Made by a program: the position numbers and the translations under genes. 63,341 nt of DNA, taken from Bacteroidota bacterium. Its GTDB lineage: Bacteria > Bacteroidota > Ignavibacteria > Ignavibacteriales > Ignavibacteriaceae. This document shows, one piece after another, positions 16,722-35,769 of the stretch; within the stretch, counting starts at the first letter, position 1; each line of letters begins with the position of its first letter. The notes under the pieces are model-generated. The model saw only the letters and a list, made by a program, of their open reading frames with translations. It did no database searches and was not told the origin of the DNA. The stretch spans positions 1-63,341 of the forward strand of contig JAKAKL010000127.1 in assembly GCA_021824565.1 (NCBI GenBank), in the 5' to 3' direction.

Positions 16722-17750
16722 ATGAGAAAATCATTATCTACAAATCCCGCAGCAAGCGAAGAAGAGAAACAATTTGAGCAGTCTCTGCGCCCGTTGCGGT
16801 TATCTGATTTTGTCGGTCAAAATAAAATTACTGATAATCTTAACGTGTTTATTTCAGCCGCATGTAAAAGAGGCGAAGCGCTGGACCATGTTCTTCTTAC
16901 AGGTCCTCCGGGATTAGGAAAAACGACATTAGCCCATATTATCGCGCATGAACTCGGTGTTAAATTGAAGATAACTTCTGGACCGGTTTTGGAAAAGCCT
17001 GGCGATCTTGCGGGGCTTTTAACAACGCTCGAAGAAAAATCAATTCTATTTATAGATGAAATTCACCGCCTTAGTCCTGTCGTTGAAGAATATCTTTATT
17101 CTGCAATGGAAGATTATAAACTTGATATAATGATCGACAGCGGACCAAATGCAAGATCGGTACAGATTAGTCTTCCAAAGTATACACTGGTAGGCGCAAC
17201 AACAAGAGCCGGGATGCTTACCTCACCATTACGTGATAGATTTGGAATTAAATTCCGCCTGGATTATTACGAAGCTGAAACCTTGAATAAAATTGTTTTG
17301 CGCTCCGCACAAATTCTTGATCTTAAAATAAAAGAAGATGCCTCTTTTGAGATTGCAAAGCGTTCACGCGGAACTCCGAGAATTGCAAACAGACTTTTGA
17401 GAAGAACCCGCGACTTTGCTGACTTTGAAGATAAAAAAAATATTGATATTGATATTTCAAAAAAAGCTTTAACCGCCCTGGAAGTTGATGAATACGGTCT
17501 CGATGAAATGGACAAAGATATTATTCTTGCTATTATCGAAAAATATAAAGGCGGTCCGGTTGGCTTAGGAACACTTGCCGTAGCCGTCAATGAAGATCCG
17601 GGTACAATTGAAGAAGTGTATGAGCCGTTTTTAATTCAGCAGGGCTTCATCCAAAGAACGCCGCGCGGAAGAGAAGCTACGGAGCTTGCTTACAAGCGCT
17701 TTAATAAAAATAAATTTGATTCGGAAAAATCACGATCCTTGTTTGACTGA
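16722..17750 (+). CDS. ruvB: Holliday junction branch migration helicase RuvB
   Basis: The 342-residue AAA+ motor drives RuvA-bound Holliday junctions. It shows [12 protein letters not shown], Walker [10 protein letters not shown] (about 64), Walker [10 protein letters not shown] (about 113), sensor 1 VGATTRAG, the arginine-finger region SPLRDRFG, sensor 2 [12 protein letters not shown], and the winged-helix C-terminal domain beginning around [11 protein letters not shown]. Length and all motifs are complete. No ruvA or ruvC is adjacent. Confidence 0.98.
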
Positions 17751-17863
17751 AAGATTTTAATTGTCAATTCTCAATAAATTAATAACTAAAATTTAATATA
17801 AGAATAAGTTTTTTATTTGTGCCGCTTATCTTGAATTAGCATATTTGCTGTCGGAAAAATTTT

Positions 17864-18790
17864 ATGAAAATATTAAAATATCTTTTTTATCTTTTGCCGC
17901 TGATAGTTTTTGTCTTAGCAATTACCGTAAGGCAATTAAACGAAGGTGCTCTCGGAACAAAACTAAATCCGATAAAAATTTATTTTACTCCTTCTGTTGA
18001 TGCTAATCGAATTTCGTTTAATGCAAAGTCACTTACCGATTTTTTGCATAATGAAACCGGCTGGTATTTTATTACTGCGGTACCGGCAAGCTACATCGCC
18101 GTTGTAGAAGCCTTTGGAACAGATAAATGCGATATTGCAGCTATAAATACTTTTTCATATTTAATGGCTAATGCAAAATACGGCGCTCAGGCAAAATTAA
18201 GAGTTGTACGCGAAGGGAATGAAACAACGTACAAAGGTCAAATTATTACAAGATATGATTCCGGAATTAATACTATAGCTGACATTAATGGTAGGTCGAT
18301 GGCTTACGTCGATCCTTCTTCTACATCAGGATATCTTCTTCCGAAAGCCTTGTTAGACAGCAAGGGCATTCATCCAAGCGAGACTGTTTTTGCAATGAGG
18401 CACGACAATGTGGTTACCATGGTTTACCAGCGTCAGGTTGATGCTGGGGCAACTTATTACTCGCCGCCGGATTCTATCACTGGAGAAGTGATGGATGCCC
18501 GCGGCAGAGTGTTAAAGCAATTCCCGGACGTTGTAAAAAAAGTGAAGATCATAGGTTTTACTCAGGACATTCCGAACGATCCATGGGTGTTTAGAAAAAA
18601 TATGAACGAAGATATGAAAGAAAAAATAATAAAAGCTATTTTAGATTTTGCTGCAACTAAAGAAGGGAAGCAGGCTTTGTTTGATATCTACGATATTACC
18701 GGTCTTGTCCGCACAAAAGACAGCGACTATGACGGCATTCGGAAGTTGTTAGAGCAGCAGCATATTTCATTTGAAAAATTGGTGAAGTAA
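17864..18790 (+). CDS. phnD: PhnD-family phosphate/phosphonate-binding protein
   Basis: A 308-residue exported binding protein: an N-terminal hydrophobic segment anchors or exports it, and there is no lipobox cysteine. The PhnD-like fold is indicated by YFTPSVDANRI, the conserved FGTDKCDIAAINTFSYL, GRSMAYVDPSSTSGYLLP (the oxyanion-binding loop) and IPNDPWVFRK. Family members bind phosphonates, phosphite or inorganic phosphate. Its stop codon overlaps the phnC start by one base (TAATG), so expression is coupled. The presence of pstB and phoU downstream suggests inorganic phosphate as the ligand, by inference. Confidence 0.88.
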   Translation: MKILKYLFYLLPLIVFVLAITVRQLNEGALGTKLNPIKIYFTPSVDANRISFNAKSLTDFLHNETGWYFITAVPASYIAVVEAFGTDKCDIAAINTFSYLMANAKYGAQAKLRVVREGNETTYKGQIITRYDSGINTIADINGRSMAYVDPSSTSGYLLPKALLDSKGIHPSETVFAMRHDNVVTMVYQRQVDAGATYYSPPDSITGEVMDARGRVLKQFPDVVKKVKIIGFTQDIPNDPWVFRKNMNEDMKEKIIKAILDFAATKEGKQALFDIYDITGLVRTKDSDYDGIRKLLEQQHISFEKLVK

Positions 18791-19551
18791 TGATTTTAGA
18801 AATTCAGAATCTGCATAAAGTTTATAATAACGGAACACATGCTCTCAAAGGCGTCAGTTTCAGCGTTAAAGAAGGAGAATTTCTTGTTGTCATCGGTTTG
18901 AGCGGATCAGGTAAATCAACTTTACTTCGCTCGATTAACCGTTTAATTGAACCAACATCAGGGACAGTTCGTTTTCTCGGGAAAGATATTACTCACATTA
19001 AAGGTGAAGAATTAAGAAAGATTAAATCTCAAATTGGAATGGTCTTTCAGCAATTTAATTTGATAAAAAGGCGGTCGGTTCTTTCCAATGTTATAAATGG
19101 AAAGCTGGGCTCTCTCGGAACTTTTAATTCTATTATTGAAAAGTATTCAGATGAAGTTTATAAAGAAGCATATAACTGTCTCGATATTGTTGGTATTGGA
19201 GACAAAGCAAAAGTTAGATCTGATTCGCTTAGCGGAGGGCAGCAGCAGCGAGTAGCAATTGCGAGAAGCTTGATGCAGAATCCTAAATTACTGCTTGCTG
19301 ATGAGCCGGTTGCTTCGCTTGATCCGGCGACGTCAAATTCAATCATGCAGTACTTTGAAAGAATAAATAAAGATTTCGGAACTACGGTAATTTGCAACTT
19401 ACATTTTCTAAGCCTCGTTAGAAGATACGCAACAAGAGTTATTGCTCTTAAAGCCGGAGAGATTATTTATGAAGGTGCGCCGTCCGACATAAATGAAGCC
19501 TGGTTCAAAACAATTTATGGAGAAGAAGCAGAAGAGGTTGAAATAAGATGA
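18790..19551 (+). CDS. phnC: PhnC-type ABC transporter ATP-binding protein
   Basis: This 253-residue ATPase energises the PhnDE importer. It has Walker A GLSGSGKST, Q-loop MVFQQFNLI, signature [15 protein letters not shown], Walker B LLLADEPVASLDP, and the PhnC-typical H-loop HFLSLVRRYATRVIALKAG. The N-terminus ILEIQNLHKVYNNGTHALKGV is also characteristic. It starts within the phnD stop and its own stop overlaps the permease start (ATGA at 19548-19551), indicating one tightly coupled operon. Confidence 0.93.
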   Translation: MILEIQNLHKVYNNGTHALKGVSFSVKEGEFLVVIGLSGSGKSTLLRSINRLIEPTSGTVRFLGKDITHIKGEELRKIKSQIGMVFQQFNLIKRRSVLSNVINGKLGSLGTFNSIIEKYSDEVYKEAYNCLDIVGIGDKAKVRSDSLSGGQQQRVAIARSLMQNPKLLLADEPVASLDPATSNSIMQYFERINKDFGTTVICNLHFLSLVRRYATRVIALKAGEIIYEGAPSDINEAWFKTIYGEEAEEVEIR

Positions 19552-20624
19552 TTAATAATTCGGAAGTCGATTTATTTCCTCAAAAAATAATCTCGGATAA
19601 AAAAAAGAAAAGCGATAAATTAAACCTTGTCAAGGCTGTCCTGCTCGACATCTTTTTTGTATTTTATTCAATCGTGGTTGTGCAGCGAGCGATATATTTA
19701 AAATACATTCTTGAGATCCGTGATCTTCCTTTTTCATGGAATCAAATTTTTATTCTTTTTGTTGCTAGCATTTTTATTGGAACGGCGTGGGCTCTTTCAA
19801 GAACTTCGCTTTCATGCAAACTTTTTGGAATAGCAAAAGATAATAAGACAACTAAATGGACAGTAGAAATATTTGCGTGGTTCCTTTTCGATATTACTTT
19901 TATTGCTGGATGGATAGTTACAAAAATTTCTATCGTTAGTATTTTTAGTGGCGAGGGTTTAGCGGGCGCTGAAAGGCTTTTCGGCGCAATGTTCCGACCA
20001 GAGTTCGGAATATTTGATGACGCTCTTTTTGCGATGATTGAAACTATTTATATAGCATTAATTGCTACTCTTATTTCAATTCCTCCGACTTTAATTCTAA
20101 GTTTTTTTACTGCAAGAAATTTGATGAAAGATAATAAAATATCTTTTACAATTTATTATGTACTTAGAATAATTTTAAATTTTATCCGTTCGATAGAACC
20201 TCTTATTTGGGCAATAATTTTTTCTGTTTGGGTTGGGATTGGACCATTTGCAGGAATGATTGCGCTGCTCGTCCATACTATTGCTTCAAATGCAAAATTA
20301 TATTCGGAGGCGATAGAAGGCATTGAAGAAGGTCCGGTTGAAGCAATATCAGCTACTGGAGCAAATAAAATTCAAATTGTGTGGCACGCAGTTGTACCGC
20401 AGATAATATTGCCGTTTCTCTCATTTACAATTTATAGATGGGACATAAACGTTAGAATGGCGACGATCATCGGGTTAGTAGGCGGCGGCGGCATCGGAAC
20501 AATGTTAATGCAATATCAAGGGCTTGCTCGCTGGCATGAAGTCGGTTTGATAATTTTAATGATTGCGTTTGTTGTTTGGATAATGGATTATATTAGTGCA
20601 AAGATTCGTGAAGCAATATATTGA
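19548..20624 (+). CDS. phnE: PhnE-type ABC transporter permease
   Basis: A 358-residue inner-membrane permease with an N-terminal transmembrane pair, then the MetI-like permease domain. The cytoplasmic coupling loop reads EGIEEGPVEAISATGANK, followed by IVWHAVVPQIILPFLSF and the glycine-rich GLVGGGGIGT, both hallmarks of PhnE. It is longer than the ~260-residue minimal PhnE because of the N-terminal extension. The start overlaps phnC by 4 nt. A single permease gene implies a homodimer. Confidence 0.92.
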   Translation: MINNSEVDLFPQKIISDKKKKSDKLNLVKAVLLDIFFVFYSIVVVQRAIYLKYILEIRDLPFSWNQIFILFVASIFIGTAWALSRTSLSCKLFGIAKDNKTTKWTVEIFAWFLFDITFIAGWIVTKISIVSIFSGEGLAGAERLFGAMFRPEFGIFDDALFAMIETIYIALIATLISIPPTLILSFFTARNLMKDNKISFTIYYVLRIILNFIRSIEPLIWAIIFSVWVGIGPFAGMIALLVHTIASNAKLYSEAIEGIEEGPVEAISATGANKIQIVWHAVVPQIILPFLSFTIYRWDINVRMATIIGLVGGGGIGTMLMQYQGLARWHEVGLIILMIAFVVWIMDYISAKIREAIY

Positions 20625-20645
20625 CCTAATGTGAGTTTGATTTAA

Positions 20646-21404
20646 ATGAATGATATAAAAGTCAAAGTAAATAATCTAAATTTATTTTACAGCGGCAAGC
20701 AGGCGCTCAAAAATATTTCTTTGGAAATGGAGACAAACAGAGTTACGGCTTTAATAGGGCCTTCCGGCTGCGGAAAATCCACTTTCATAAGAACGTTAAA
20801 CCGGATGAATGAATTAATACGAGGAGTAAAAATTAGAGGCGAAGTTAAAATTGACGGTCAGAATATTTATGATTCAAGCGTTGATGTTGTTAGTCTTCGT
20901 AAAAAGATAGGAATGGTTTTTCAAAAAGCTAATCTATTTCCGAAGAGCATTTATGATAATCTTGTCTATGGTCCAAAGATCAACGGTTTAAGAAACAAAA
21001 AAAAATTGAATGAGGTTGTGGAAAAAACTTTAAAGTATGCCGCCCTGTGGGATGAAGTAAAAGACAGGCTGAATAGCTCAGCTTTAAGTTTGTCCGGCGG
21101 ACAGCAGCAGAGGCTTTGCATTGCACGTGCATTGACTATTGAACCGGAAATAATTTTAATGGATGAGCCAGCTAGCGCGCTCGATCCGATTGCAACAGCA
21201 AAAATTGAAGAATTAATTTTCGAACTGAAAAAAAATTATACAGTTGTAATTGTTACCCACAATATGCAGCAGGCAGCCCGCGTTAGCGACCAAACAGCTT
21301 TCTTTTATGTTGGCGAGTTAATTGAATTCGATAAAACCACAAAAATCTTTACCAACCCTTCTAAGAAACAGACTGAAGATTATATTTCCGGAAGATTTGG
21401 TTAA
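20646..21404 (+). CDS. pstB: PstB-type phosphate ABC ATPase
   Basis: A 252-residue ATPase with PstB-specific features: Walker [19 protein letters not shown], signature [15 protein letters not shown], Walker [14 protein letters not shown]-loop [15 protein letters not shown], and the C-terminal [19 protein letters not shown] that is nearly diagnostic of PstB. It follows phnE by 21 nt and precedes phoU by 16 nt. No pstS, pstC or pstA is present here, so it is either an accessory ATPase for the PhnDE permease, a partner of a Pst permease elsewhere, or a regulatory remnant. Confidence 0.93.
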
Positions 21405-21420
21405 TCAAACAAGGAAATAA

Positions 21421-22149
21421 ATGGAACGTCAATTTGATATTCAGGTCGATAAGCTAAAGAAAAAAATACTTAAAATGTGCAGCCTAGTTGATGAGCAAGT
21501 TGAGTTTGCTATTAAAGCAGTCGACAATAACGATGCGGAGCTTGCCAGACTTGTGATTGACAGAGACGTGAAGGTAGATAAGTACGATATTAAGATTGAA
21601 AAAATTTGTCAAAAAATTTTCGCTCTTAATCAGCCTGTAGCAATGGACTTAAGACTAATTATGTCGGCAATAACTATCAACACGAACCTAGAGCGCATTG
21701 GAGATATAGCAGTTAATATTGCGGAAAATTTTTTGATTCTAAAATCCAAACCGGACTTCATCAGCCGCACAAAGTATTTGGAGATGGCGAAGATTGTAAA
21801 AGATATGATCCGCAATGCTATTGATTCTTTTATACAAAATGACGCCAAGCTTGCACAGAAGGTAATCCAGACCGATCCAATCATTGACAGCTACAATGTA
21901 GAGAACCATCAAATCCTTATAAATATTATGAAAGAGGACGCGAAAAATATTGAACAGGCTGTCGCTCTAATAGTAATTTCACGTCAGCTCGAAAGACTCG
22001 GCGATCACGCTACTAACATTGCCGAAGATGTCTTCTTCATTGTTGAGGCACAAATGATCAAACATAAATATGAAAAATATATTTTAGATGACTATTCTGA
22101 TGATGAAGACGATGACGATGAAAAAATTACTACTAAAAGTCAGCAGTAA
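21421..22149 (+). CDS. phoU: PhoU-like phosphate uptake regulator
   Basis: A 242-residue all-helical protein with two PhoU repeats. The paired motifs NTNLERIGDIAVNIAE (first repeat) and RQLERLGDHATNIAEDV (second repeat) carry the conserved E-R-[IL]-G-D metal-binding pattern. PhoU links the phosphate transporter to the PhoR kinase and limits phosphate uptake. The C-terminus has a run of Asp/Glu (DDYSDDEDDDDE), an unusual acidic tail. It is the last gene of the phn-pst-pho operon; no two-component genes are adjacent, and no Pho-box-like repeat was found upstream of phnD. Confidence 0.95.
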   Translation: MERQFDIQVDKLKKKILKMCSLVDEQVEFAIKAVDNNDAELARLVIDRDVKVDKYDIKIEKICQKIFALNQPVAMDLRLIMSAITINTNLERIGDIAVNIAENFLILKSKPDFISRTKYLEMAKIVKDMIRNAIDSFIQNDAKLAQKVIQTDPIIDSYNVENHQILINIMKEDAKNIEQAVALIVISRQLERLGDHATNIAEDVFFIVEAQMIKHKYEKYILDDYSDDEDDDDEKITTKSQQ

Positions 22150-22164
22150 TGCTCACCATTTCAA

Positions 22165-22734
22165 TTAAAGATTTTCAATAATTGATAATAAAGATTCTTT
22201 TATAGATCCCTCGTTGACGGGCTGAAGAACTTGATTGATCTTCCCTGTAAATACTAGCCCCCAGCTTTGATAAATAAGGAGCGAAATAGATGACGCATGC
22301 TGAAAAATTTTCTTCTCACTAAAGTTCTTTCTTATAAATGCGCTCAAAATTTCTTCTTCATCAATAAATAAATTTTTTATCTGTTCAACTTCGTTTTCAA
22401 AATTATTTTCCTTTAAAATAACCAGGAGCGCATCATACAATAGATTATACTTCTGATTCAGCGTCACTTTGAACATAAAATATTCAGTCAATTTATTAAT
22501 GGCATTTGTATCTTCTTTTGAAAAAATATTTTTTATCTCCTCCAAAAATTGCTGGCATTCCCAGGCGAGCGCAGCATAAAACAATTCATCTTTAGAATTA
22601 AAATAATGATAGATAGTTGCCTTTCCGATCCGCAAGTCTCTAGCAATTTCATCGAGCGTAGTTTTATTTATGCCGTGCCTTGCAAATCTTTTTTCAGCCA
22701 TTCGTATTATCTGGAGCTTTCTTTCCTTTTCCAT
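22165..22734 (-). CDS. TetR/AcrR family transcriptional regulator
   Basis: A 189-residue regulator: residues ~8-55 form the TetR helix-turn-helix (RMAEKRFARHGINKTTLDEI, LRIGKATIYHYFNSKDEL). The C-terminal ligand-binding region is poorly conserved, as usual. It lies 33 nt downstream of cstA on the same strand and is probably cotranscribed, so it may autoregulate the pair or respond to peptide or pyruvate availability. The effector is unknown. It converges on phoU with only 15 nt between stops. Confidence 0.9.
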   Translation of the reverse strand: MEKERKLQIIRMAEKRFARHGINKTTLDEIARDLRIGKATIYHYFNSKDELFYAALAWECQQFLEEIKNIFSKEDTNAINKLTEYFMFKVTLNQKYNLLYDALLVILKENNFENEVEQIKNLFIDEEEILSAFIRKNFSEKKIFQHASSISLLIYQSWGLVFTGKINQVLQPVNEGSIKESLLSIIENL

Positions 22735-22767
22735 TAAATTCTTCTAATTTATTTTTGTTGAAAAATA

Positions 22768-24591
22768 TTAATAAGCAGCAAGAACTGTTTCAAGGTTCCT
22801 AATAGTTCTTATCCACTTTGGAACTGCACTAGCAAAAATAGTCACAGCGCATAACATAATTAAACTTGTTACCGAAAGATTTATTATTCCTTGAATCATC
22901 GTGCCTGATCTCAAAGCTTGAGGGTAATAAATATTAGTGATATTTTCTAAACCAGCGGTTAAGGTTGTCGTAAGGACAAAAATCATCGGGACGATTGTAA
23001 TCCATGAATAACGCGCTTTGCCTTTATTAATTAAATATGAAGTTCCTATTATCAGCGCAATACCGGCAAGCAGTTGATTAGCAGTACCGAACAATGGCCA
23101 GATTGTAGAAACAGTTCCGGTATAAATAAAATAACCCCAAGCGAAAACTACTAATAAGCTTGCAATAATATTCCCGGGCAGCCAATCCGTTTTAGCAAAA
23201 GGCTTGTAAAATTTTCCAAAAGATTCTTGAAGAACAAATCTTGCAATTCTTGTTCCGGCATCAACTGTGGTGAGAATAAAAAGAGCCTCAAACATGATTG
23301 CAAAGTGATACCAATACGACATCAAGCCTTTCATTCCCGGTATTGCCGAAAATATTTGAGCCATACCCACTGCAAGAGATACAGCTCCTCCTGTTCGTCC
23401 AGCAATTTTTTCTCCCACTTCGGCGGACAATGTTTTTAATGCAGAAACATTAAAACCCATTGCATGAAGCTGCGGAAGAATACTTTGGAATTTTTCAATC
23501 GGTACATTTATCTGAAAATAATCAAGCGGGAATAAACTCGAAGCAGCAATAAGAGCAAGAATGCTTACTATTCCTTCGGTAAGCATGGCACCGACTGCAA
23601 TAGATTTTATATGAGCTTCGCTCATCAGCATTTTTGGGGTGGTGCCCGAGCTTACTACCGAATGGAATCCGGAAATCGCTCCGCAAGCAATTGTTATAAA
23701 TAAGTAAGGAAATAAAGTGCCCGGGATTATCGGTCCGCCTCCATTAATGTAATTTGTAAATGCCGGCATTTTTAAATTTGGCGCAACTATAATAATTCCG
23801 ATTGCGAGAAGCGCTATAACGCTTATTTTCATTATTGAACTTAAATAATCTCTTGGCGAAAGCAAAACCCACACCGGTAATACCGATGCCAAAAAACCGT
23901 ATGAAGCTAAAAGAATAGTTAAAGTATGATGATCAAAAGTAAACCATGATGCTAAAGGAGAACCAGGAATGTCTTTGCCGAAAATTACAGATGCAGAAAG
24001 TAAAATTACACCGAAAATTGTAGCTTCAATTGTTTTTCCTTTTCTGATTTTAAACATCCAGAAACCCATAATCACTGCAATAGGAATTGTAGCTGCAATT
24101 GTAAAAGTTCCCCACGAGCTTTCCGCAAGAGAATTAACGACAACTAAACCTAAACCGGCTAAAGCAATAATTAAAATAATTAATACTGCTACGCTTGTAG
24201 TAATGCTGCTTACCTTTCCAATTTCATATTTCGCAATTTCAACGATAGACTTCCCGTCATGTCTTACTGATGCAACTAAAATTATAAGGTCATGCACTGA
24301 GCCAGCCAGAACTGCTCCAAACAACATCCACAAAAAGCCCGGGAAATATCCGAACTGCGTCGCCAACACAGGACCAACCAACGGACCAGCGCCTGCAATT
24401 GCGGCAAAATGATGCCCAAACAAAACCCATTTGTTCATAGGATAATAATTTTGTCCATCGAATAATCTTTTAGAAGGTGTCTCGTTAGCAGAATTAATAA
24501 CGGCTACTTTGGCAACGATAAAGCCAAAATAAAATCTGTAAGCGATTGTGAAAAAAACAATCGCTATAAGGATCAAAGGCATAGCATTCAT
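22768..24591 (-). CDS. cstA: Carbon starvation protein CstA (peptide/pyruvate transporter)
   Basis: A 607-residue membrane protein with about 15-16 transmembrane segments, matching CstA/BtsT transporters that import peptides or pyruvate under carbon limitation. The conserved [49 protein letters not shown] and [15 protein letters not shown]-like ([15 protein letters not shown]) motifs are present. AAAGGGA is spaced correctly before the ATG. Its 5' end faces the ilv leader promoter across a 226-bp AT-rich divergent region, and a tetR gene follows. Confidence 0.95.
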
Positions 24592-24768
24592 AAAAATTAT
24601 CCCTTTAATTTTTTTGAATTATTAATATCCTAAAAATAAAACCAGTTTGAAAATTTTCCAACTGAAATAAAAAATAAGATTTTAAGAAAATTTCCAGGTA
24701 TTAAATTACGAATAATTGAATAAATAATATGATTTATCTCAATTTCATAATAATTATTGAAAATTATC

Positions 24769-24799
24769 TTGACATTAAATTACTCGGCTCTTATCTTTG
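24769..24799 (+). promoter_or_regulatory. Promoter of the ilv-leu leader transcript
   Basis: TTGACA at 24769-24774 and TATCTTTG at 24792-24799 match the -33 and TAnnTTTG -7 elements with a 20-bp gap after TTG. Transcription would start near 24806, placing the leader-peptide ATG about 12 nt into the transcript, as in classical attenuated operons. Confidence 0.6.
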
Positions 24800-24817
24800 C
24801 ATTAAAATTTTAATAAA

Positions 24818-24976
24818 ATGTATAACACGACAGCAAATAGAAAAATGAACTTAATCGCTTTAACAAGAAGCGGTCGCCGTGTTGTATTAACTTATTCAAA
24901 AAATAACCTTTCTTTAGACGTTATCCTAGGGATTTCAATTATTATTAGCTTGCTAGGTATTATTATTCTAGGCTAA
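24818..24976 (+). CDS. Leader peptide of the ilv-leu operon (Ile/Leu/Val-rich)
   Basis: This 52-codon ORF starts just after the promoter and ends 427 nt before ilvB. The last 19 residues (DVILGISIIISLLGIIILG) contain 13 branched-chain residues, including III, LL and III runs, immediately before the stop at 24974-24976. This is the layout of attenuation leader peptides such as ilvL and leuL, where ribosome stalling at scarce charged tRNAs controls a terminator. An internal ATG at 24845 would give a 43-residue form with the same control region. A membrane micro-protein is the alternative, since the tail is also hydrophobic. No strong Shine-Dalgarno is visible. Confidence 0.75.
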   Translation: MYNTTANRKMNLIALTRSGRRVVLTYSKNNLSLDVILGISIIISLLGIIILG

Positions 24977-24983
24977 TAGCATA

Positions 24984-25050
24984 GTCAATCCCAAATCATC
25001 AAACAAAATTAAAAATAAAAGATTCGGGATTGACGAAGCCCCGAAGTTTT
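24984..25050 (+). promoter_or_regulatory. Attenuator: competing antiterminator and terminator hairpins
   Basis: GTCAATCCC (24984-24992) pairs with GGGATTGAC (25026-25034), extendable to 24997:25021 with one mismatch. The competing hairpin TTCGGG (25023-25028) with CCCGAA (25040-25045), followed by GTTTTGT, shares bases 25026-25028 with the first. The two cannot coexist. A ribosome at the leader stop (24976) would cover the 24984 strand and favour the terminator; a ribosome stalled on the Ile/Leu codons would leave it free. The switching model is inference; the pairings are direct. Confidence 0.6.
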
Positions 25051-25077
25051 GTCTGAAGCGATTTTTCAGAGGCATTA

Positions 25078-25310
25078 GTGAGATCTCGATTCGAAAATAG
25101 CGGCAATCAAAATACTTCCATAAGAAGAGTTGATAGCTATGCCGTTCTCACCACAAGTGTTGTATATCTAAAACAACATCTCACCAAAAGCTTTTTTATT
25201 AAGGCGCTTTTCGCTGATTTAAAAATATTCTTTCTAAAAGATATTTGTGAATTGATGATTAGCTGCATCTAAGTATAAGAAGTTAATAATAATTTCTTTT
25301 ATTTAGATGC
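25078..25310 (+). promoter_or_regulatory. Structured 5' leader upstream of ilvB
   Basis: Nested pairings form one long hairpin: GTGAGA 25078-25083 with TCTCAC 25146-25151, then CGGCA/TGCCG, ATCAA/TTGAT and CTTC/GAAG. The segment TCTCACCA occurs twice (25146-25153 and 25179-25186) around a TGTTGT/ACAACA hairpin, and the second copy is followed by AAAAGCTTTTTT. Another hairpin, GCATCTAA 25265-25272 with TTAGATGC 25303-25310, lies nearer ilvB. No T-box or known riboswitch signature was recognised. A 64-codon GTG ORF here has no coding support. Confidence 0.45.
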
Positions 25311-25403
25311 CTTTCAACTAAAATTAAGCTTTCTAAGCAATACTAAAATTAAATAATTTATTTATACGACATATTTTTCTTATAAAATTTTGAAAGGAAA
25401 ATT

Positions 25404-27122
25404 ATGAGGACAGTAACTCCTAAAATGACTGGTGCAGAAATATTTTTTGAATCTTTAAAAAAAGAAAAGGTAGAATATGTTTTCGGCTATCCTGGCGGAG
25501 CTGTATTAAAAATTTACGAAAAACTTTATGATGTAGACTTTCTGAAACACATTCTTGTTCGTCACGAGCAAGGTGCGACACACATGGCTGAAGGTTATGC
25601 AAAAGCTACTGGCAAGGTCGGAGTTGTGCTCGTTACATCAGGCCCGGGCGCTACAAATACTGTTACAGGCATAGCTGACGCTTATATGGATTCTGTACCA
25701 ATAGTGGTTTTCACCGGACAGGTGCCGACGCATCTAATCGGTAACGATGCTTTTCAAGAAGCCGACATTGTAGGTATTACGCGTCCAATTACCAAGCATA
25801 ATTTTCTTGTTCGTGATGTAAACGAACTTGCGTTAACAATTAAAAAAGCGTTTTATATTGCTTCAACCGGAAGACCCGGTCCGGTGCTTGTTGATCTTCC
25901 GAAAGATGTAATTAATTCTGTCTGCGAATTCGACTATCCTGAAAAAATTGAGCTTCGCGGATATAAACCGACTTTTCTCGGTCACCAAAACCAAATTAAA
26001 AAAGCCGCCGAAATTTTAAAGAAAGCTAAACGTCCTTTACTTTATGTCGGAGGCGGTGTAATTATGTCCAACGGCGATAGGGAACTTAGACTTTTTGCAA
26101 AAGAAAATAATTTGCCTGTAACGATGACACTCCAGGGATTAGGCGCTTTCCCGATGACCGACACGCAATCTCTCGGAATGCTTGGAATGCATGGAACTTA
26201 TTGGGCAAATCAAGCTGTCAATAATTGCGACGTGCTCGTTTCGCTTGGTGCCCGTTTTGATGACCGCGTTACCGGCAAGGTTGATGCATTTGCTACTAAA
26301 GCCTACAAAATTCATGTGGATATTGATCCTACATGCATTGATAAAAATATTGTCGTAGATCTTCCAATCGTCGGAGACGTTAAACACGTACTTGCAGAAC
26401 TGGCTGCGGAAATGGATGAAGCTCCGGATCTTACCGAATGGTGGCAGCAGATAAATACCTGGCGCGAAGAATGTCCGCTCCATTATGAAAAAAATGATGG
26501 AAAATTAAGATCGGAGTTTATTATAGAAAAAATTTCTGAAAAGACTAAAGGAGAAGCTGTCGTCATTACAGATGTGGGGCAGCATCAAATGTGGGTTTCA
26601 CAATATTATAAATTTACTAACCCGCGTTCGCACATAACAAGCGGCGGATTAGGAACTATGGGATTTTCACTTCCCGCTTCAATAGGTGCGGCTTTTGGAA
26701 TTAAAGACCGTCCGATTGTTTCGATTAGCGGAGACGGAGGCTTCCAGATGAACATTCAAGAACTGGTAACGGCTGCTTATAATAAGCTTCCTATAAAATT
26801 TATAATTCTTAATAACAGCTTTTTAGGAATGGTCAGACAGTGGCAGGAGTTATTCCACGCTGAAAAATATAGCTTTACTGATTTATCTGACAGCAACCCT
26901 AATTTTGTGAAAGTTGGAGAAGCATTCGGATTAAAATCCTTTTCTACAAACTCTCCAAACAATGTTGATGATATTTTAGAGCAGGCTTTTTCATATAACG
27001 CCGGGCCTGTATTAATTGAATTTAAAGTTGTAAAAGAAGATATGGTTTTCCCTATTATACCAGCGGGACAATCAGTAAAAGAAATAATGACTAAAAGACT
27101 TGATCCAAAGGAGATGGTGTAA
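25404..27122 (+). CDS. ilvB: Acetolactate synthase large (catalytic) subunit
   Basis: The 572-residue thiamine-diphosphate enzyme joins two pyruvates, or pyruvate and 2-oxobutyrate, in the first common step of Val/Leu and Ile synthesis. The catalytic Glu55 lies in HEQGATHMAEGYA; FAD/pyrimidine region GPGATNTVTGIADA follows; the ThDP motif starts at GDGGFQMN (about 443) and continues to NNSFLGMVRQWQ. GAAAGGA just upstream of ATG 25404 supports the start. It opens the eight-gene ilv-leu-cim operon, behind the attenuated leader. The regulatory subunit is encoded 3 nt downstream. Confidence 0.97.
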   Translation: MRTVTPKMTGAEIFFESLKKEKVEYVFGYPGGAVLKIYEKLYDVDFLKHILVRHEQGATHMAEGYAKATGKVGVVLVTSGPGATNTVTGIADAYMDSVPIVVFTGQVPTHLIGNDAFQEADIVGITRPITKHNFLVRDVNELALTIKKAFYIASTGRPGPVLVDLPKDVINSVCEFDYPEKIELRGYKPTFLGHQNQIKKAAEILKKAKRPLLYVGGGVIMSNGDRELRLFAKENNLPVTMTLQGLGAFPMTDTQSLGMLGMHGTYWANQAVNNCDVLVSLGARFDDRVTGKVDAFATKAYKIHVDIDPTCIDKNIVVDLPIVGDVKHVLAELAAEMDEAPDLTEWWQQINTWREECPLHYEKNDGKLRSEFIIEKISEKTKGEAVVITDVGQHQMWVSQYYKFTNPRSHITSGGLGTMGFSLPASIGAAFGIKDRPIVSISGDGGFQMNIQELVTAAYNKLPIKFIILNNSFLGMVRQWQELFHAEKYSFTDLSDSNPNFVKVGEAFGLKSFSTNSPNNVDDILEQAFSYNAGPVLIEFKVVKEDMVFPIIPAGQSVKEIMTKRLDPKEMV

Positions 27123-27125
27123 ATA

Positions 27126-27635
27126 ATGAAACATACAATTTCGGTTCATGTAGAAAACCATTACGGCGCATTTAACCGTGTTGCTACTATGTTCAGCGGC
27201 AAAGGCTTTAACATTCACAGCATTTCAATTGGCGAAACTGAAGTCCCCGAAGTTTCGAGAATGACCATCGTAACTGAAGGTGAAGACAAAATTATTGAAC
27301 AGGTTGTTAAACAATTAAATAGATTAATTGATACGATTAAAGTCATTGACTTAACAGGACAGTCGCGAGTTGAAAGAGAGTTAGCACTTATAACAGTTTT
27401 TTATCAGAAGGGCACCCGCGCAGAAATAACGAACATCTGCAATATATTTAGAGGGAATGTAGTTGATATAAACAATAAAACAATTACCTTGGAAGTTACC
27501 GGTCCGCCGGATAAGATCGATGCAGTAATAAATGTTCTCGCCCCTTACGGTATAAAAGAAATGGCTCGCTCAGGAACGGTTGCTTTAAAGAGAGGCGAGC
27601 AGTTAAAACAAGATAAAAAAGAAACAGTAATTTAA
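27126..27635 (+). CDS. ilvN: Acetolactate synthase small (regulatory) subunit
   Basis: A 169-residue protein with an N-terminal ACT domain ([29 protein letters not shown]) and a C-terminal ALS small-subunit domain. In the family it binds valine and confers feedback inhibition on IlvB. Length matches the IlvH/IlvN class. It starts 3 nt after ilvB and ends 14 nt before ilvC, with a purine-rich AAAAAGGAAAAATG spacing preceding the next gene. Confidence 0.95.
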
Positions 27636-27649
27636 AAAGGAAAAATGAA

Positions 27650-28666
27650 ATGAAAGTTTATTATGATAGTGATGCTTCGTTAGATTATTTATTAAATAAA
27701 AAAATTGCGGTGCTTGGTTTCGGAAGCCAAGGGCATGCACATGCGTTGAATTTAAAAGAGAGCGGCTGCAATGTCGTCGTCGGACTTCGCAAAGGAAGCG
27801 ATAGATGGGCAAAGGCAGAAGCTGTAGGTCTAACAGTTAAAACTGTTCCCGAAGCCGCTGAATGGGGCGACGTTGTAATGGTGTTGCTGCCGGATCAAAA
27901 TCAAAAAGCTGTTTATGATCAGGATATTGCTCCTCACCTCAAACCAGGAAACACTTTGGCTTTTGGTCATGGGTTCAATATTCACTACAAGCAAATTGTT
28001 CCTTCGCCGGATATTAATGTTATGATGATAGCTCCTAAAAGCCCAGGGCATCTTGTTCGCAGAACATATATTGAAGGAAGCGGCGTTCCATGTTTAATTG
28101 CTGTTCATCAGGATCCAAGCGGTGAAACCAAGCAATTGGCTCTTGCATGGGCGAAAGGAATCGGCGGTACTAAAGCCGGTGTTATAGAAACTAATTTTAA
28201 AGACGAAACCGAAACAGATTTATTTGGAGAGCAGGCTGTTCTTTGCGGCGGTTCGGCAGAATTAATTAAAGCCGGTTTTGAAACTCTTGTCAATGCGGGT
28301 TATCCTCCCGAGCTTGCTTATTTCGAATGTATGCATGAGATGAAGCTGATAGTTGATCTTTATTACGAAGGCGGACTTTCAAGAATGAATTATTCTGTCA
28401 GCGATACTGCTGAATACGGTGGAATGACAAGAGGGAGCAGATTAATAACCGATGAGACTCGTAAAGAAATGAAAAAAATATTAGGTGAAATTCAAAGCGG
28501 TCAGTTCGCAAATGAATGGTTGACAGAATATAAAAATGGTCAACCGCTGATGGAAAAATTAAGAAAAGAAAACAGGGAGCATGAAATTGAAAAAGTTGGA
28601 GGCAAGCTTAGACAAATGATGAGCTGGCTGTTCAAGAAAAATTCCAAAGAAGAGGTCGGTGTATGA
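27650..28666 (+). CDS. ilvC: Ketol-acid reductoisomerase
   Basis: A class I (short) KARI of 338 residues. It isomerises and reduces acetolactate or acetohydroxybutyrate. The Rossmann motif [13 protein letters not shown] starts at residue 23, the cofactor-specificity loop reads [11 protein letters not shown], and the metal-binding residues appear in [15 protein letters not shown] and later [13 protein letters not shown]. The stop overlaps the leuB start (ATGA, 28663-28666). No ilvD follows, which is unusual for such an operon. Confidence 0.97.
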
Positions 28667-29760
28667 ATTTCAAAGTAACACTTCTTCCCGGAGATGGAAT
28701 AGGACCGGAAGTAGTTAACTCTGCTATTTCGGTAATGAAAGTTGCCGGAGAAAAATTTAATGTAACATTTAAATTTAATGAGCAGCTTGTGGGCGGCTGT
28801 TCTTATGATAAAAACGGTACTCCGCTTACGGATGAAGTATTAAGCGCGTGCTATGGTTCCGACGCGGTTCTGCTTGGCGCTGTCGGCGGATATAAATGGG
28901 AATCTCTTCCGCAAAATTTAAAACCTGAAGCTGCTTTGTTAAAATTAAGGAAAGCTTTGGGACTTTATACGAACATTCGTCCTGCAAAAGTTTATTCCGC
29001 TTTGCTTTCAGCTTCTACCTTAAAGCCTGAAGTCCTGGATGGAACAGACTTTATAATATTGAGAGAACTTACCGGTGATGTCTATTTCGGTGAACCGCGC
29101 GGCTTTAATGATGAAAAAGGCTGGAACACGATGGTATATACCCGTGAAGAAGTTGAGCGTATTGCTAGATACGGTTTTGAGCTTGCACGAAAGCGAGCGA
29201 AAAAGATTACTTCTGTTGATAAGGCAAACGTTCTCGATTGTTCGCAGTTTTGGAGAAAAATTGTTCATGAGATTCATAAAGATTTTCCGGATGTCGAATT
29301 AAGCGATATGTATGTTGACAATGCGGCAATGCAGATCGTTCGTAACCCAAAACAATTTGATGTAATTCTCACACAAAATTTATTCGGAGATATTTTAAGC
29401 GATATAGCTGCGATGATTACGGGCAGCCTCGGCATGCTTCCATCTGCAAGCCTGGGAAAAAATTATGCTTTGTACGAACCCGTTCACGGAAGCGCGCCTG
29501 ATATAGCAGGGCAGAGCAAAGCAAATCCTCTCGCTACAATATCTTCCATCGCGATGATGTTTGGGCTTTCGTTCCAGATGTCTAAGGCTTCGGAACTGAT
29601 CGAAGCGGCAATCGACAGGACTTTAACCATGGGATATAGAACTGCTGATATTTATTCGCCTGATACTATACTTGTTTCTACTGCTCAAATGACTGAGGCA
29701 GTCATAGAAAATTTTAATCAAATATATGACGAACAGGCTTTAGGAGTTTTTACACTTTAG
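28663..29760 (+). CDS. leuB: 3-isopropylmalate dehydrogenase
   Basis: A 365-residue NAD-dependent oxidative decarboxylase. It begins [13 protein letters not shown], has the substrate-recognition segment [17 protein letters not shown], the lysine/tyrosine region [15 protein letters not shown], the NLFGDILSD metal-binding aspartates, and [11 protein letters not shown] for NAD binding. In this operon it may also oxidise erythro-3-methylmalate in the citramalate route to 2-oxobutyrate, as LeuB-type enzymes do in other bacteria. It overlaps ilvC by 4 nt. Confidence 0.97.
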
Positions 29761-29795
29761 TAATTTCAAAATGAATTTAATCATCGAGGCAAAAT

Positions 29796-31391
29796 ATGAG
29801 TAATAGAGTTATTGTTTTTGATACAACATTAAGAGACGGCGAACAATCGCCCGGTGCTTCCTTAAATGTTTTTGAAAAATTTGAAATTGCAAGACAGTTA
29901 GTAAAGCTAAATGTAGATGTTATTGAAGCGGGATTCCCGGTCTCATCTCCTGCGCAGTTTGAAGCTGTGCAAAGAATTTCCGGAGAACTTGATGTGGTGG
30001 TAGCAGGCCTGGCGCGCGCTAAGGAAATAGATGTTAAATCCGCGTACGACGCTCTACACGAAGCGAAAAAATTTAGGATACATACGTTTTCCAGCACTTC
30101 TGATATTCATATCCTTGGGAAGTTCGGAGACGATCGCTACGGCAAGACTTTGAAAGAAAAAAGAAAAACCATTATTAAAATGTCTTATGATGCTGTCGCA
30201 TATGCGAAAACTTTTACGGAAGACGTTGAATTCTCTGCTGAAGATGCCGGCAGGACTGATCTCGGCTATCTTTCTGAAGTTATTGAGGCTGCGATAGAAG
30301 CCGGCGCAACAACCGTGAATATTCCGGATACTACGGGCTATACTTTTCCATCAGAGTTTGGAGCTAAGATCGCTGAGCTTAAAAAAAGAGTAAAGAATAT
30401 CGATAAAGCAATCATAAGTGTTCATTGCCATGACGATCTTGGGCTTGCTGTAGCAAATTCTTTGAGCGGAATTGAAAACGGCGCGCGTCAAGTTGAATGC
30501 ACGATCAATGGTATCGGCGAACGTGCAGGAAACGCTTCTCTTGAAGAAATCGTAATGGCATTAAAAGTAAGAAAAGATCTCGTAAAATATTTTACAAAAA
30601 TAAAGACTGAAGAAATATTTAATACGAGCAAAATGGTTTCTTCTTTTACTGGAATAATAGTTCAGCCGAATAAAGCGCTTGTCGGCGAAAATGCTTTTGC
30701 ACATGAATCCGGGATTCATCAAGACGGCATGTTGAAGAACAGGCAGACTTATGAAATCATGACCCCTGAAAGTGTTGGCGTTAATAAAACTAAGATTGTA
30801 TTGGGAAGGCATTCCGGCAGACATGGCTTGAAATCTCGTTTGAAAGAATTAGGCTACTCGATCAGTGAAAAAGAGCTTCATCAAGTTTATGATAAATTCG
30901 TAGCGCTCGCAGATAAAAAGAAAGAAGTCTTTGACGACGATTTAAGAATTATGATGGGTGATCAAGTTGTAGATAAGAAGGACGAGTTCTTCGAGCTGGA
31001 ATATCTCCATGTCAGCATGGGAACTAATTCTATCCCAACGGCTACTGTAAGAATTAAATCAAAAGAAATTGTCCTGCAGGAATCAGCGACCGGCGATGGT
31101 GCAGTGGACGCTTGTTTTAATGCAATTGAGCGCGCACTTGATTTGAAGCCGCAGCTTGAATCATATAATGTCCGCTCTGTTACTTCGGGAAGACAGGCGA
31201 TGGGCGAAGTGATCGTAAGGCTTCGTGAAAAAGAACATTCGTTCACAGGCAGAGGAATTTCTACAGATGTTATAGAAGCCAGCGCCAAGGCTTATATTCA
31301 AGCGCTTAATCAGCAGCAAGTTTATTTAAGGATGATTAAGGAAGAAAAATTACTTGATCATTCGTTATCCGATTTATCACAAGCAGTTTAA
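29796..31391 (+). CDS. leuA: 2-isopropylmalate synthase
   Basis: A 531-residue enzyme joining acetyl-CoA to 2-oxoisovalerate, the first committed step to leucine. The catalytic motif DTTLRDGEQSPGAS lies at the N-terminus and HCHDDLGLAVANS carries the metal-binding histidines; a C-terminal LeuA dimerisation/feedback domain starts around residue 385 (FELEYLHVSMGTNS). It is distinguished from the cimA product later in the operon by GEQSPGAS rather than GTQGEAIN. Confidence 0.96.
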   Translation: MSNRVIVFDTTLRDGEQSPGASLNVFEKFEIARQLVKLNVDVIEAGFPVSSPAQFEAVQRISGELDVVVAGLARAKEIDVKSAYDALHEAKKFRIHTFSSTSDIHILGKFGDDRYGKTLKEKRKTIIKMSYDAVAYAKTFTEDVEFSAEDAGRTDLGYLSEVIEAAIEAGATTVNIPDTTGYTFPSEFGAKIAELKKRVKNIDKAIISVHCHDDLGLAVANSLSGIENGARQVECTINGIGERAGNASLEEIVMALKVRKDLVKYFTKIKTEEIFNTSKMVSSFTGIIVQPNKALVGENAFAHESGIHQDGMLKNRQTYEIMTPESVGVNKTKIVLGRHSGRHGLKSRLKELGYSISEKELHQVYDKFVALADKKKEVFDDDLRIMMGDQVVDKKDEFFELEYLHVSMGTNSIPTATVRIKSKEIVLQESATGDGAVDACFNAIERALDLKPQLESYNVRSVTSGRQAMGEVIVRLREKEHSFTGRGISTDVIEASAKAYIQALNQQQVYLRMIKEEKLLDHSLSDLSQAV

Positions 31392-31402
31392 GGAAAAAAT
31401 TT

Positions 31403-32698
31403 ATGTCAATGACAATAACAGAAAAAATATTAGCGAAAGCATCCGGCAGAAGAAAAGTCGATCCTGGCGAAAATGTTTGGCTCGATGTGGATGTATTAAT
31501 GACTCACGATGTTTGCGGACCTCCGACAATTGGAATCTGGAAACGCGAGTTCGGCAAGGATGCAAAGATCTGGAATAAGGATAAACTTGTAATTTTCCCT
31601 GATCATTATATCTTTACTAAAAATCCGCAGGCGAATAGAAACGTTGAAATCCTTCGCGAGTTCGCTAAAGAGTTTAATGTCCAAAATTATTATGATGTTG
31701 GAACGGAGCGGTATAAAGGAGTTTGTCATATTGCTCTTGCGGAAGAAGGCTATAATATTCCGGGTACTGTTTTGTTTGGTACCGACTCTCATACATGTAC
31801 TTCCGGAGCGTTCGGAATGTTTTCAACCGGCGTTGGCAATACCGATGCAGCGTTCATTCTAGGCACGGGAAAAATTTGGGAGAAAATTCCGCAGTCGTTA
31901 AAATTTACTTTTGAAGGAAAGCTTCCGGCGTATCTTACTGCAAAAGATCTAATCTTAAAAGTTTTGGGCGAAATTACAACTGACGGCGGAACCTACTGCG
32001 CATTAGAATTTGACGGCGATGCAGTTTTTGATTTGTCGATGGATGAAAGAATGACGTTGACAAATATGGCTATCGAAGCAGGAGCAATGAACGGAATTAT
32101 TGCTGCCGATGCAGTCACTGAGGCATACGTTAAAAGAAGGACAAATAAATCGTATGAGATTTACAACAGCGATGCAGATGCAAGCTATAAATCAAAGTTT
32201 GTTATAGATGCAAGCAAGCTTGAGCCTTCTGTCGCCAAGCCCCACAGCCCGGATAATTATGATTCTGTAAGAAATGTTAAAGGGACTAAACTTACAAAGT
32301 CTTACATCGGTTCATGTACCGGTGGGAAATTAAGCGACTTTATTTCAGCGGCAAAAATTCTGCTTGGTCAAAAAGTTAAAATTCCAACTTTCATAGTTCC
32401 CGCAAGCACTTCTGTAGCGCAGCAGCTTGACGAAGAAACAATAAGCGGAATAACATTGAAACAAATTTTTGAAAATGCCGGTTGTGCAATTGCGCAGTCT
32501 TCCTGCGCGGCTTGTCTCGGCGGACCAATGGATACTACCGGACGGGCTGTTGATGGAGAAACAATTATTTCTACTACTAATAGAAATTTCCCGGGAAGAA
32601 TGGGAAGTAAGAAATCTGCTGTTTATCTAGCTTCGCCGCTGACAGTGGCCGCATCAGCAATAAATGGTGTAATTACTGATCCACGGGATTTTTTGTAG
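31403..32698 (+). CDS. leuC: 3-isopropylmalate dehydratase large subunit
   Basis: A 431-residue aconitase-family protein that holds a [4Fe-4S] cluster. The three ligands are Cys305 (GSCTGG) and Cys368/Cys371 (SSCAACLGG). Its length is that of the short archaeal/bacterial-type enzyme (~420), not the ~470-residue enterobacterial LeuC. Short forms often also isomerise citramalate, which suits the cimA gene in the same operon. It begins 11 nt after leuA and works with the leuD product 48 nt downstream. Confidence 0.95.
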   Translation: MSMTITEKILAKASGRRKVDPGENVWLDVDVLMTHDVCGPPTIGIWKREFGKDAKIWNKDKLVIFPDHYIFTKNPQANRNVEILREFAKEFNVQNYYDVGTERYKGVCHIALAEEGYNIPGTVLFGTDSHTCTSGAFGMFSTGVGNTDAAFILGTGKIWEKIPQSLKFTFEGKLPAYLTAKDLILKVLGEITTDGGTYCALEFDGDAVFDLSMDERMTLTNMAIEAGAMNGIIAADAVTEAYVKRRTNKSYEIYNSDADASYKSKFVIDASKLEPSVAKPHSPDNYDSVRNVKGTKLTKSYIGSCTGGKLSDFISAAKILLGQKVKIPTFIVPASTSVAQQLDEETISGITLKQIFENAGCAIAQSSCAACLGGPMDTTGRAVDGETIISTTNRNFPGRMGSKKSAVYLASPLTVAASAINGVITDPRDFL

Positions 32699-32746
32699 GA
32701 AACTAATTTTGAAAAAGTTATAAGAAATTTACGGAGAATTTATTTA

Positions 32747-33307
32747 ATGGAAAAAATAATAAAAGGAAAAGCCTTCGTGCTTGGAAATAATATCGATACG
32801 GATCAGATTATTCCTGCAGAGCATTTAGTATACAGCATGACTGATCCGGAAGAAATAAAGAAGTACGGACATTTTGCTTTCTCAGGTGTGCCGGCTTCGC
32901 AGGCAGGCTTGCCTCAAGGCGGTGTACAATTTATTGAAGGCGAGAATCATATTTCTGAATTTAGTATTGTTATAGGCGGCGCAAATTTTGGCTGCGGCTC
33001 TTCAAGAGAGCATGCTCCGTTTGCTCTACAAGTAGCAGGTGTTAAAGCTATTGTTGCTGAGTCCTATGCGAGAATATTCTTTAGAAATTCTGTTGACGGA
33101 GGGTTTCTTCTTCCTTATGAAACTCCCGTTAAGTTAAATGATAAGATTAAAACCGGCGATGAACTTGAAATAGAAGTCGCCTCAAATATCTTAAAAAATG
33201 TAACGACCGGCGAATCATTCAATCTTAGAGCGCTTGGCGATATTCTTCCAATAATTGAAGCGGGAGATATATTTAAGTATGCGAGACAATCAGGCATGCT
33301 AGCGTAA
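32747..33307 (+). CDS. leuD: 3-isopropylmalate dehydratase small subunit
   Basis: A 186-residue swivelling-domain subunit. Signals are GNNIDTDQIIPAEHL at the N-terminus, GANFGCGSSREHAPFAL, and ESYARIFFRNSVDGG, all substrate-binding segments of the aconitase small domain. Its length and the adjacent short LeuC again indicate the archaeal-like isopropylmalate isomerase type. GGAG lies upstream of the ATG. Confidence 0.95.
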   Translation: MEKIIKGKAFVLGNNIDTDQIIPAEHLVYSMTDPEEIKKYGHFAFSGVPASQAGLPQGGVQFIEGENHISEFSIVIGGANFGCGSSREHAPFALQVAGVKAIVAESYARIFFRNSVDGGFLLPYETPVKLNDKIKTGDELEIEVASNILKNVTTGESFNLRALGDILPIIEAGDIFKYARQSGMLA

Positions 33308-33343
33308 TTATTATTTAATTTATTATTAATAATCGGAACAGCC

Positions 33344-34933: not shown

Positions 34934-34951
34934 TTTAATTTTATATATAAG

Positions 34952-35710: not shown

Positions 35711-35769
35711 TTAATAAAAATTTTGTAACGTGAGATTATTTTTATCCTTAATTAAGGAGACTTATTCAG

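Follow-up and report, generated by a model that had tools for sequence, protein, structure and literature searches.

The question raised by this locus is how the branched-chain amino acid operon of an Ignavibacteriales bacterium is controlled from the DNA in front of its first gene. The window, the whole 63,341-nucleotide contig analysed here, carries on its forward strand ilvB, encoding the acetolactate synthase large subunit (25404-27122), and the rest of the operon (27126-34933), in the order ilvB-ilvN-ilvC-leuB-leuA-leuC-type-leuD-cimA. The genes were named by NCBIfam search, except for a 186-aa ORF with no NCBIfam match at 1e-40, which we take to be leuD from its position. The best named relatives of IlvB were a ‘Bacteroidetes bacterium’ MAG (80% identity), a Caldithrix abyssi-labelled MAG (73%) and a Chlorobaculum-labelled MAG (68%). 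An earlier note on this DNA had proposed classical leader-peptide attenuation of the operon, with ribosome release at the leader stop favouring a terminator and stalling on branched-chain codons allowing read-through. Conservation, covariation and codon choice strongly support the attenuation; the terminator is probably not the one it described but a better supported long-range helix followed by a T tract.

The leader ORF, ORF1 (24818-24976, + strand), was found by ORF scan and has homologous leaders in relatives. It encodes 52 aa, ends in a TAA stop (24974-24976) and lies between a promoter-like site (24769-24799) and the ilvB start at 25404. As the note had read it, 13 of the last 19 residues are Ile, Leu or Val, the C-terminal end being ILGISIIISLLGIIILG. 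ORF1 is thus short and carries the cluster of cognate codons that characterizes leader-peptide attenuators. Of the 378 ORFs in the window, both strands counted, that start with ATG and encode 20-100 aa, it ranked first; an ORF1-like ORF arose on the + strand in 2 of 2000 dinucleotide shuffles of 24592-25403. The stem that the note had placed 7 nt past the stop is also there: segment c (GTCAATCCC, 24984-24992) pairs at 9 of 9 positions with segment d (GGGATTGAC, 25026-25034), whose 5' flank GATT (25021-25024) pairs with AATC (24994-24997), and the fold of 24980-25060 has an energy of -17.8 kcal/mol (z -3.76). Given the shuffle count and this z score, a chance origin of ORF1 and its stem is unlikely. 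The promoter-like site joins TTGACA (24769-24774) to TATCTTTG (24792-24799). TTGACA-17-TATCTT scored 10/12 in a motif scan that returned 65 sites in 17000-36000 vs 54.1 in shuffles, and by eye a TTGAC and a TA..TT box recur 5' of many relatives' leaders. Near the ORF1 start, a hairpin (h0, 24821-24829 with 24878-24886) surrounds Arg-Val-Val codons. It shows some covariation, with 124 of 168 cells paired in register in 19 leaders vs at most 105 of 171 when slid, and might serve to pause the polymerase and so couple it to the ribosome.

We compared the leader among relatives. Close IlvB matches (E up to 1e-150) occurred in 27 of the 80 family genomes searched, and the leader element was present in 23 of these 27, two of them imperfect: an early in-frame stop breaks the leader of G014 (L004), and a contig end cuts that of G015. 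Among the other four, one genome has a distant IlvB, at 46% identity, the IlvB matches of two are partial, and in one the region retrieved ends ~1.2 kb 5' of ilvB. The first 19 leaders, from the family, encode 50-55 aa; L004 and L005, the latter cut by a contig end, stand outside them. A covariance model built from the 19 matched 44 of the 391 genomes of the class; every one of these belongs to the order of the window, and together they represent three families. Adding 34 of the 35 later leaders gave a comparison set of 53 from the order; L201, which has no Ile/Leu/Val leader and like the broken L004 counts against the attenuator reading, was dropped, and L231, found afterwards, lies outside the set. 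Forty of the 53 leaders have ilvD as the first biosynthetic gene 3' of them (a fragment in one case), 12 have ilvB and one has leuB. Leader-peptide attenuation of branched-chain synthesis thus appears, from these sequence comparisons, to be conserved across a poorly studied order.

Several loci depart from the usual arrangement. At L202 (G113) the same leader element precedes leuB-leuA, where ilvD is usual. Genome G069 holds two different leaders (L195 and L200); 3' of each, close to a contig end, lies a short match to ilvB. A second leader copy, at L199 (G123), has an ilvD match of 46 residues behind it and may belong to a decaying operon.

The stem c:d was paired in 86.8% of 689 cells over the 53 leaders, and in at most 53.7% in slid registers. 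Nine of its 13 pairs had changed on both sides (31 such cells). On four of the five measures no shuffle of 500 reached these values, and on the fifth, pair types, 28 did; here, as in all codon and covariation probabilities below, shared ancestry is ignored. Segment c has a second partner within the leader codons: segment b (GGGATT, codons Gly-Ile, 24929-24934) pairs with AATCCC of c. All six b:c pairs were present in 46 of the 53 leaders, five in 6 and four in 1, and matched changes were seen as GGAATT:AATTCC (L204) and GGGATC:GATCCC (L209, L222). The region from d to TATATCTG might alternatively be read as a second promoter and not as RNA structure, since TTGAC and TATATCTG resemble the boxes of the leader's own promoter. 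Their spacing, by eye in the rows measured, is ~13-15 nt vs 17 in the leader promoter, and TTGAC changes together with its pairing partner in several relatives, which makes a promoter here hardly credible.

A third helix reaches from the coding sequence to the far side of the stem. Segment a (CTTTAGAC, codons Ser-Leu-Asp, 24912-24919) pairs with segment f (GTCTGAAG, 25051-25058), linking the codons just 5' of the Ile/Leu/Val run to the TATATCTGAAG region across a 131-nt loop, with about 8 core pairs in the window. In an alignment made without structure, a:f was paired in 77.2% of 565 cells vs at most 46.9% for slides, and no shuffle of 500 reached its percentage, its 31 cells changed on both sides or its score. 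On the other two measures it did not beat shuffles: seven of its pairs had changed on both sides, a number that 254 of 500 shuffles equalled, and 142 of 500 did so for pair types. Slid versions had 5-9 such pairs and 10-30 such cells vs 7 and 31 in register. Leader-f duplexes had a mean z of -1.87 (below -1 in 40 of 53, below 0 in 47, not below 0 in 6), foreign partners equalled the leader's own in a mean fraction of 0.28 (0.5 expected), and the duplex of L210 runs to 18 consecutive pairs. Segment f is followed by a T tract (25062-25066 in the window); T content 3' of f averaged 5.58/10 over the 53 leaders vs 3.31/10 in upstream control DNA, with at least 6 T of 10 in 29 leaders and fewer than 6 in 24. 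On this evidence the helix a:f is rather likely to be the base of a terminator, and a:f with the T tract is the best-supported terminator candidate; the terminator probably differs from the hairpin of the earlier note. A local helix between the bases just 5' of d and f, at first taken as the terminator base, was rejected (mean z -0.38; foreign partners equalled its own, 0.45). A generic terminator scan of 17000-36000 returned 14 sites vs 16.8 in shuffles, with none at the leader; this result, the 131-nt loop and the imperfect T tract of 24 leaders weigh against a:f as an intrinsic terminator.

The hairpin that the note had taken as the terminator pairs TTCGGG (25023-25028) with segment e (CCCGAA, 25040-25045). 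It lies where the note had put it, overlapping the c:d stem and followed by GTTTTGT. In that account a ribosome at the stop masks c, so that d forms TTCGGG:CCCGAA as a terminator with GTTTTGT, and stalling leaves c:d as the antiterminator. The geometry of d:e is as described; it was paired in 73.0% of 477 cells vs at most 61.6% for slides, with 27 both-side cells (2 of 500 shuffles as high) and a score that 9 of 500 reached. Against it, 393 of 500 shuffles had as many pairs changed on both sides, its energetic excess was small (mean z -0.39, below 0 in 34 of 53) and it rarely won in the models below. The T run after it is not general in relatives, where at least 5 T within 8 nt of the last predicted pair occurred in just 3 of 53 leaders (in some rows that pair belongs to another hairpin); the T-rich tract further on is general. 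The alignment of relatives that the note had proposed as its own check shows conserved branched-chain codons and, among the competing helices, strong covariation for c:d, conservation of b:c and a:f, and weaker support for d:e. As a general mechanism the masking of c at the stop is unlikely.

Codon choice in the leaders bears on the roles of the codons and of the peptide. CTA makes up 50% of the 311 Leu codons in the tails of the 53 leaders, and 5% of 2291 Leu codons in adjacent genes at 50 loci. At the Gly position of segment b, 48 of 53 leaders have GGG (the rest are three GGA and two TGG, Trp), and GGG is used in just 2 of the 74 other Gly codons of the same tails. These skews fit a sensor of tRNA charging and a constraint from RNA pairing, and not a function of the peptide; codon choice thus supports codon-based ribosomal attenuation. 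ORF1 might instead act through its product, either a small hydrophobic protein working in the membrane or an arrest peptide that senses the free amino acid; the hydrophobic tail kept within the genus would fit this. ORF1 had no Pfam match at E up to 1, the residues encoded by segment a shift with the RNA partner (Ser-Leu-Asp, Ser-Ser-Glu, Pro-Ser), and the synonymous choices are strongly skewed, so that we regard such a product as very improbable. That the element is a leader-translation attenuator is very likely in our judgement.

Each leader was then modelled up to the T tract by partition function with a ribosome footprint at each codon. Over the 53 leaders a:f had 8.9 mean expected pairs without a ribosome and 8.6 with one at the stop, and dropped to less than 3 when the A site stood at any codon from -23 to -16; positions -24 to -13 were the only ones at which fewer than half of the leaders kept it (at least 5 pairs). 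In the window fewer than 3 a:f pairs were left at A-site positions from -23 to -13, which include Leu -22, -20 and -16, Val -18 and Ile -17 and -14, and fewer than 1 from -20 to -13 (Leu, Asp, Val, Ile, Leu, Gly, Ile, Ser; 24914-24937). A ribosome on the first branched-chain codons would therefore block the 5' strand of a:f. Codons -12 to -1, which are also rich in Ile, Leu and Val, barely alter a:f, and this counts against the proposed sensor. The stem c:d formed in 75-100% of leaders at every ribosome position, together with a:f, and so is not a simple antiterminator. The switch that the note had drawn between the stem and the hairpin stands insofar as c:d overlaps d:e; c:d does not exclude a:f. 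What the modelled stall does is block a:f directly. At A-site positions -22 to -19 of the window, c:d lost ground to b:c and d:e (at -19, 8.6 pairs for b:c, 4.0 for d:e and 3.6 for c:d).

The models also bear on the ribosome at the stop, where the note had expected d:e. One of the 53 leaders showed 3 or more expected d:e pairs when no ribosome was present. A ribosome placed at the stop gave this hairpin a share of 0.02-0.06, 0.19-0.21 and 0.34 for footprints reaching 9, 12 and 15 nt past the stop codon; as footprints widened c:d dropped and d:e climbed, with a:f kept in 0.77 of leaders. The window behaves differently: a 12-15-nt downstream footprint at the stop lowered a:f to 0.4-0.9 expected pairs, and at 15 nt d:e had 6.0 pairs, with a:f at 0.9 and no c:d. 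In the window, then, either a:f or the d:e version may hold.

For the element as a whole, sequence comparison and models together favour a ribosome-mediated transcription attenuator that senses charged Ile, Leu and Val tRNAs and in which a:f and the T tract terminate; we consider this likely. That the output lies at transcription termination we hold with somewhat greater confidence. The leader ORF, the rare-codon use, c:d, a:f, b:c and the T-rich tract rest on comparison, and from them we infer the switching steps. When amino acids are plentiful, the ribosome would run through the leader and leave segment a exposed behind it, a would pair with f, and transcription would end at a:f and the T tract. 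When charged tRNA is short, the ribosome would halt at the first Leu, Val and Ile codons (24914-24937), on or just past a, covering it directly; a:f would be blocked and RNA polymerase would proceed into ilvB. Segments b, c, d and e would supply alternatives within the loop, b:c and d:e vs c:d.

A different output was considered from the sequence just 3' of f. Segment g (25065-25072) holds TTCAG, which pairs with CTGAA of f, and the Shine-Dalgarno (SD)-like AGAGG of a second ORF, ORF2. The hairpin f:g might thus conceal the SD of whichever gene comes first, ilvD or, in the window's genus, ORF2, and leader translation would open or close it. Consistent with this, the best fold paired half of the SD or more in 37 of 50 regions (three of the 53 have no recognised start), with a mean z of -1.05 and values below 0 in 36. 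The helix f:g was weak or absent in many leaders (z not below 0 in 14 of 50), and the sign speaks against it: with the ribosome gone by, a:f would form and so release the SD when amino acids are plentiful. The target in the window would be ORF2 and not ilvB, and the T tract would be left unexplained. We therefore think translational control improbable, and retain termination at a:f as the preferred output.

ORF2 (25078-25272, 64 aa from GTG) has a history of its own. In the sister genera seen, ilvD mostly lies directly 3' of the attenuator; it does not do so in the 11 genomes of the window's genus with the leader region seen. The first ~29 codons of ORF2, which lies between the attenuator and ilvB, match ilvD starts in register and appear to be what is left of an ilvD that has gone from the operon. 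Compared with 37 ilvD starts, the first 9 nt excluded, ORF2 had a mean identity of 0.39-0.50 at the 11 genus loci vs 0.27-0.28 when slid, and 0-0.9% of slides scored as high; L013, from another genus, failed this identity test. An IlvD match was found elsewhere in 12 of 13 genus genomes, mostly ~45% identical to the sister-genus query; two genomes have a 79% match besides. It seems that the ~45%-identical copy elsewhere (as at G000:C20:221772-223118) has taken the place of the native ilvD in this genus.

The ORF2 tail is rich in Ile, Leu and Val at L007, L008, L009 and L011 (13-14 of the last 20 residues). Around the ORF2 stop (25265-25310), GCATCTAA (25265-25272) pairs with TTAGATGC (25303-25310). 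Drawn from L008, this stem was paired in 93.8% of 144 cells with 13 both-side cells in an alignment of 9 of the 11 genus loci, and no shuffle of 500 equalled it on four of the five measures, while 4 did on the remaining one. The other two loci, L005 and L010, stand outside the alignment; by eye the GCATCTAA stem is absent from their sequences, which counts against its universality. At the nine loci we also noted that GTGAGAT at the ORF2 start matches ATCTCAC ~100 alignment columns on (61 of 63 cells), and TGTTGT matches ACAACA (51 of 54). ORF2 is possibly a second regulatory leader built on the ilvD start, making a tandem attenuator, and it looks decayed in the window, where its tail is poorer in Ile, Leu and Val. 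The full combination, an order-wide attenuator with the ribosome as antiterminator and the terminator 5' strand inside the sensor ORF, joined in one genus by a second attenuator from an ilvD stump as tandem leader peptides, the second decayed in the window, we put forward tentatively and at somewhat less than even chances.

Related forms were sought in other groups. The Caldithrix abyssi-labelled MAG (L033) has a:f-, b:c- and c:d-like pairings 5' of ilvD and ilvB, and in a model search of six named records that genome alone scored (E 0.0146). A leader-plus-stem filter was passed by 7 of 80 ilvB loci, five of them convincing on inspection. The Balneolales-labelled L039 and L041 have leaders with a different stem, GCCAGAGGTTAG, and b:c helices of 12-13 pairs. 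A phylum search found the GCCAGAGGTTAG stem in 10 of 395 genomes, nine with leader and IlvB downstream; among the ten, L256 is a chance match and L249 has the same sequence as L039. These loci (L247-L255, L039 and L041) represent another type of branched-chain leader, built around the stem GCCAGAGGT..ACCTCTGGC, in which the leader codons CTA ATT TCT GGC (or close) pair over 9-14 bases with the stem 5' arm. CTA accounts for 60 of the 80 Leu codons in the last 30 codons of the 12 Balneolales-type rows, the duplicate L249 and the chance match L256 included. In some rows, by eye, CCTC of the stem could pair with GAGG 5' of ilvB, a hint of translational control.

If correct, this reading would mean that branched-chain synthesis is widely controlled by leader-peptide attenuation in a large lineage, most of it uncultured. 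The 53 leaders would form a clean natural series for asking how the 5' strand of a terminator can lie inside coding sequence, and ORF2 would be a case of a regulatory ORF apparently made from the start of a lost gene. An Rfam scan of the window returned two tRNAs only, with no T-box or other leader RNA, and a permissive scan of 24700-25420 gave five sub-threshold matches, none a bacterial amino-acid leader.

The attenuators of the enterobacterial ilv, leu, thr and his operons combine a short ORF rich in cognate codons, the rare Leu codon CTA as sensor and alternative helices. The present element shares these features and the amino-acid operon downstream. Unlike in those systems, the supported terminator 5' strand here lies within the leader codons, 131 nt 5' of its partner; the length of the 19 family leaders, 50-55 aa, is a further difference. 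In the pyrBI and Streptomyces trp attenuators the ribosome can block the terminator directly, as proposed here, while the sensor and the RNA layout differ. Closer to the present lineage, leader-peptide attenuation has been suggested 5' of amino-acid operons in Flavobacterium psychrophilum (PMC9723704), and leader-peptide-like small ORFs have been suggested in long 5' UTRs of Bacteroides thetaiotaomicron (PMC7366714), both members of the Bacteroidetes. The earlier note's remark that it knew of no such description in the lineage is to be read with caution accordingly. The element itself is not described in the open-licence literature searched, and the main text of PMC9723704 does not contain ‘ilv’. 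The Corynebacterium ilvBNC attenuator and ilvB-II motif (PMC10272879, PMC11857589) likewise place a uORF or leader with several hairpins 5' of ilvB; they belong to another phylum, and no Rfam family matched the window there. In Salmonella mgtCBR, tandem attenuators with two short ORFs in one leader serve one operon (PMC3641672), resembling ORF1 and ORF2 in number and differing in operon and signals, and here ORF2 starts as an ilvD remnant. Set beside these systems, the element is most probably a leader-peptide attenuator, a known kind of regulator, with a new RNA layout.
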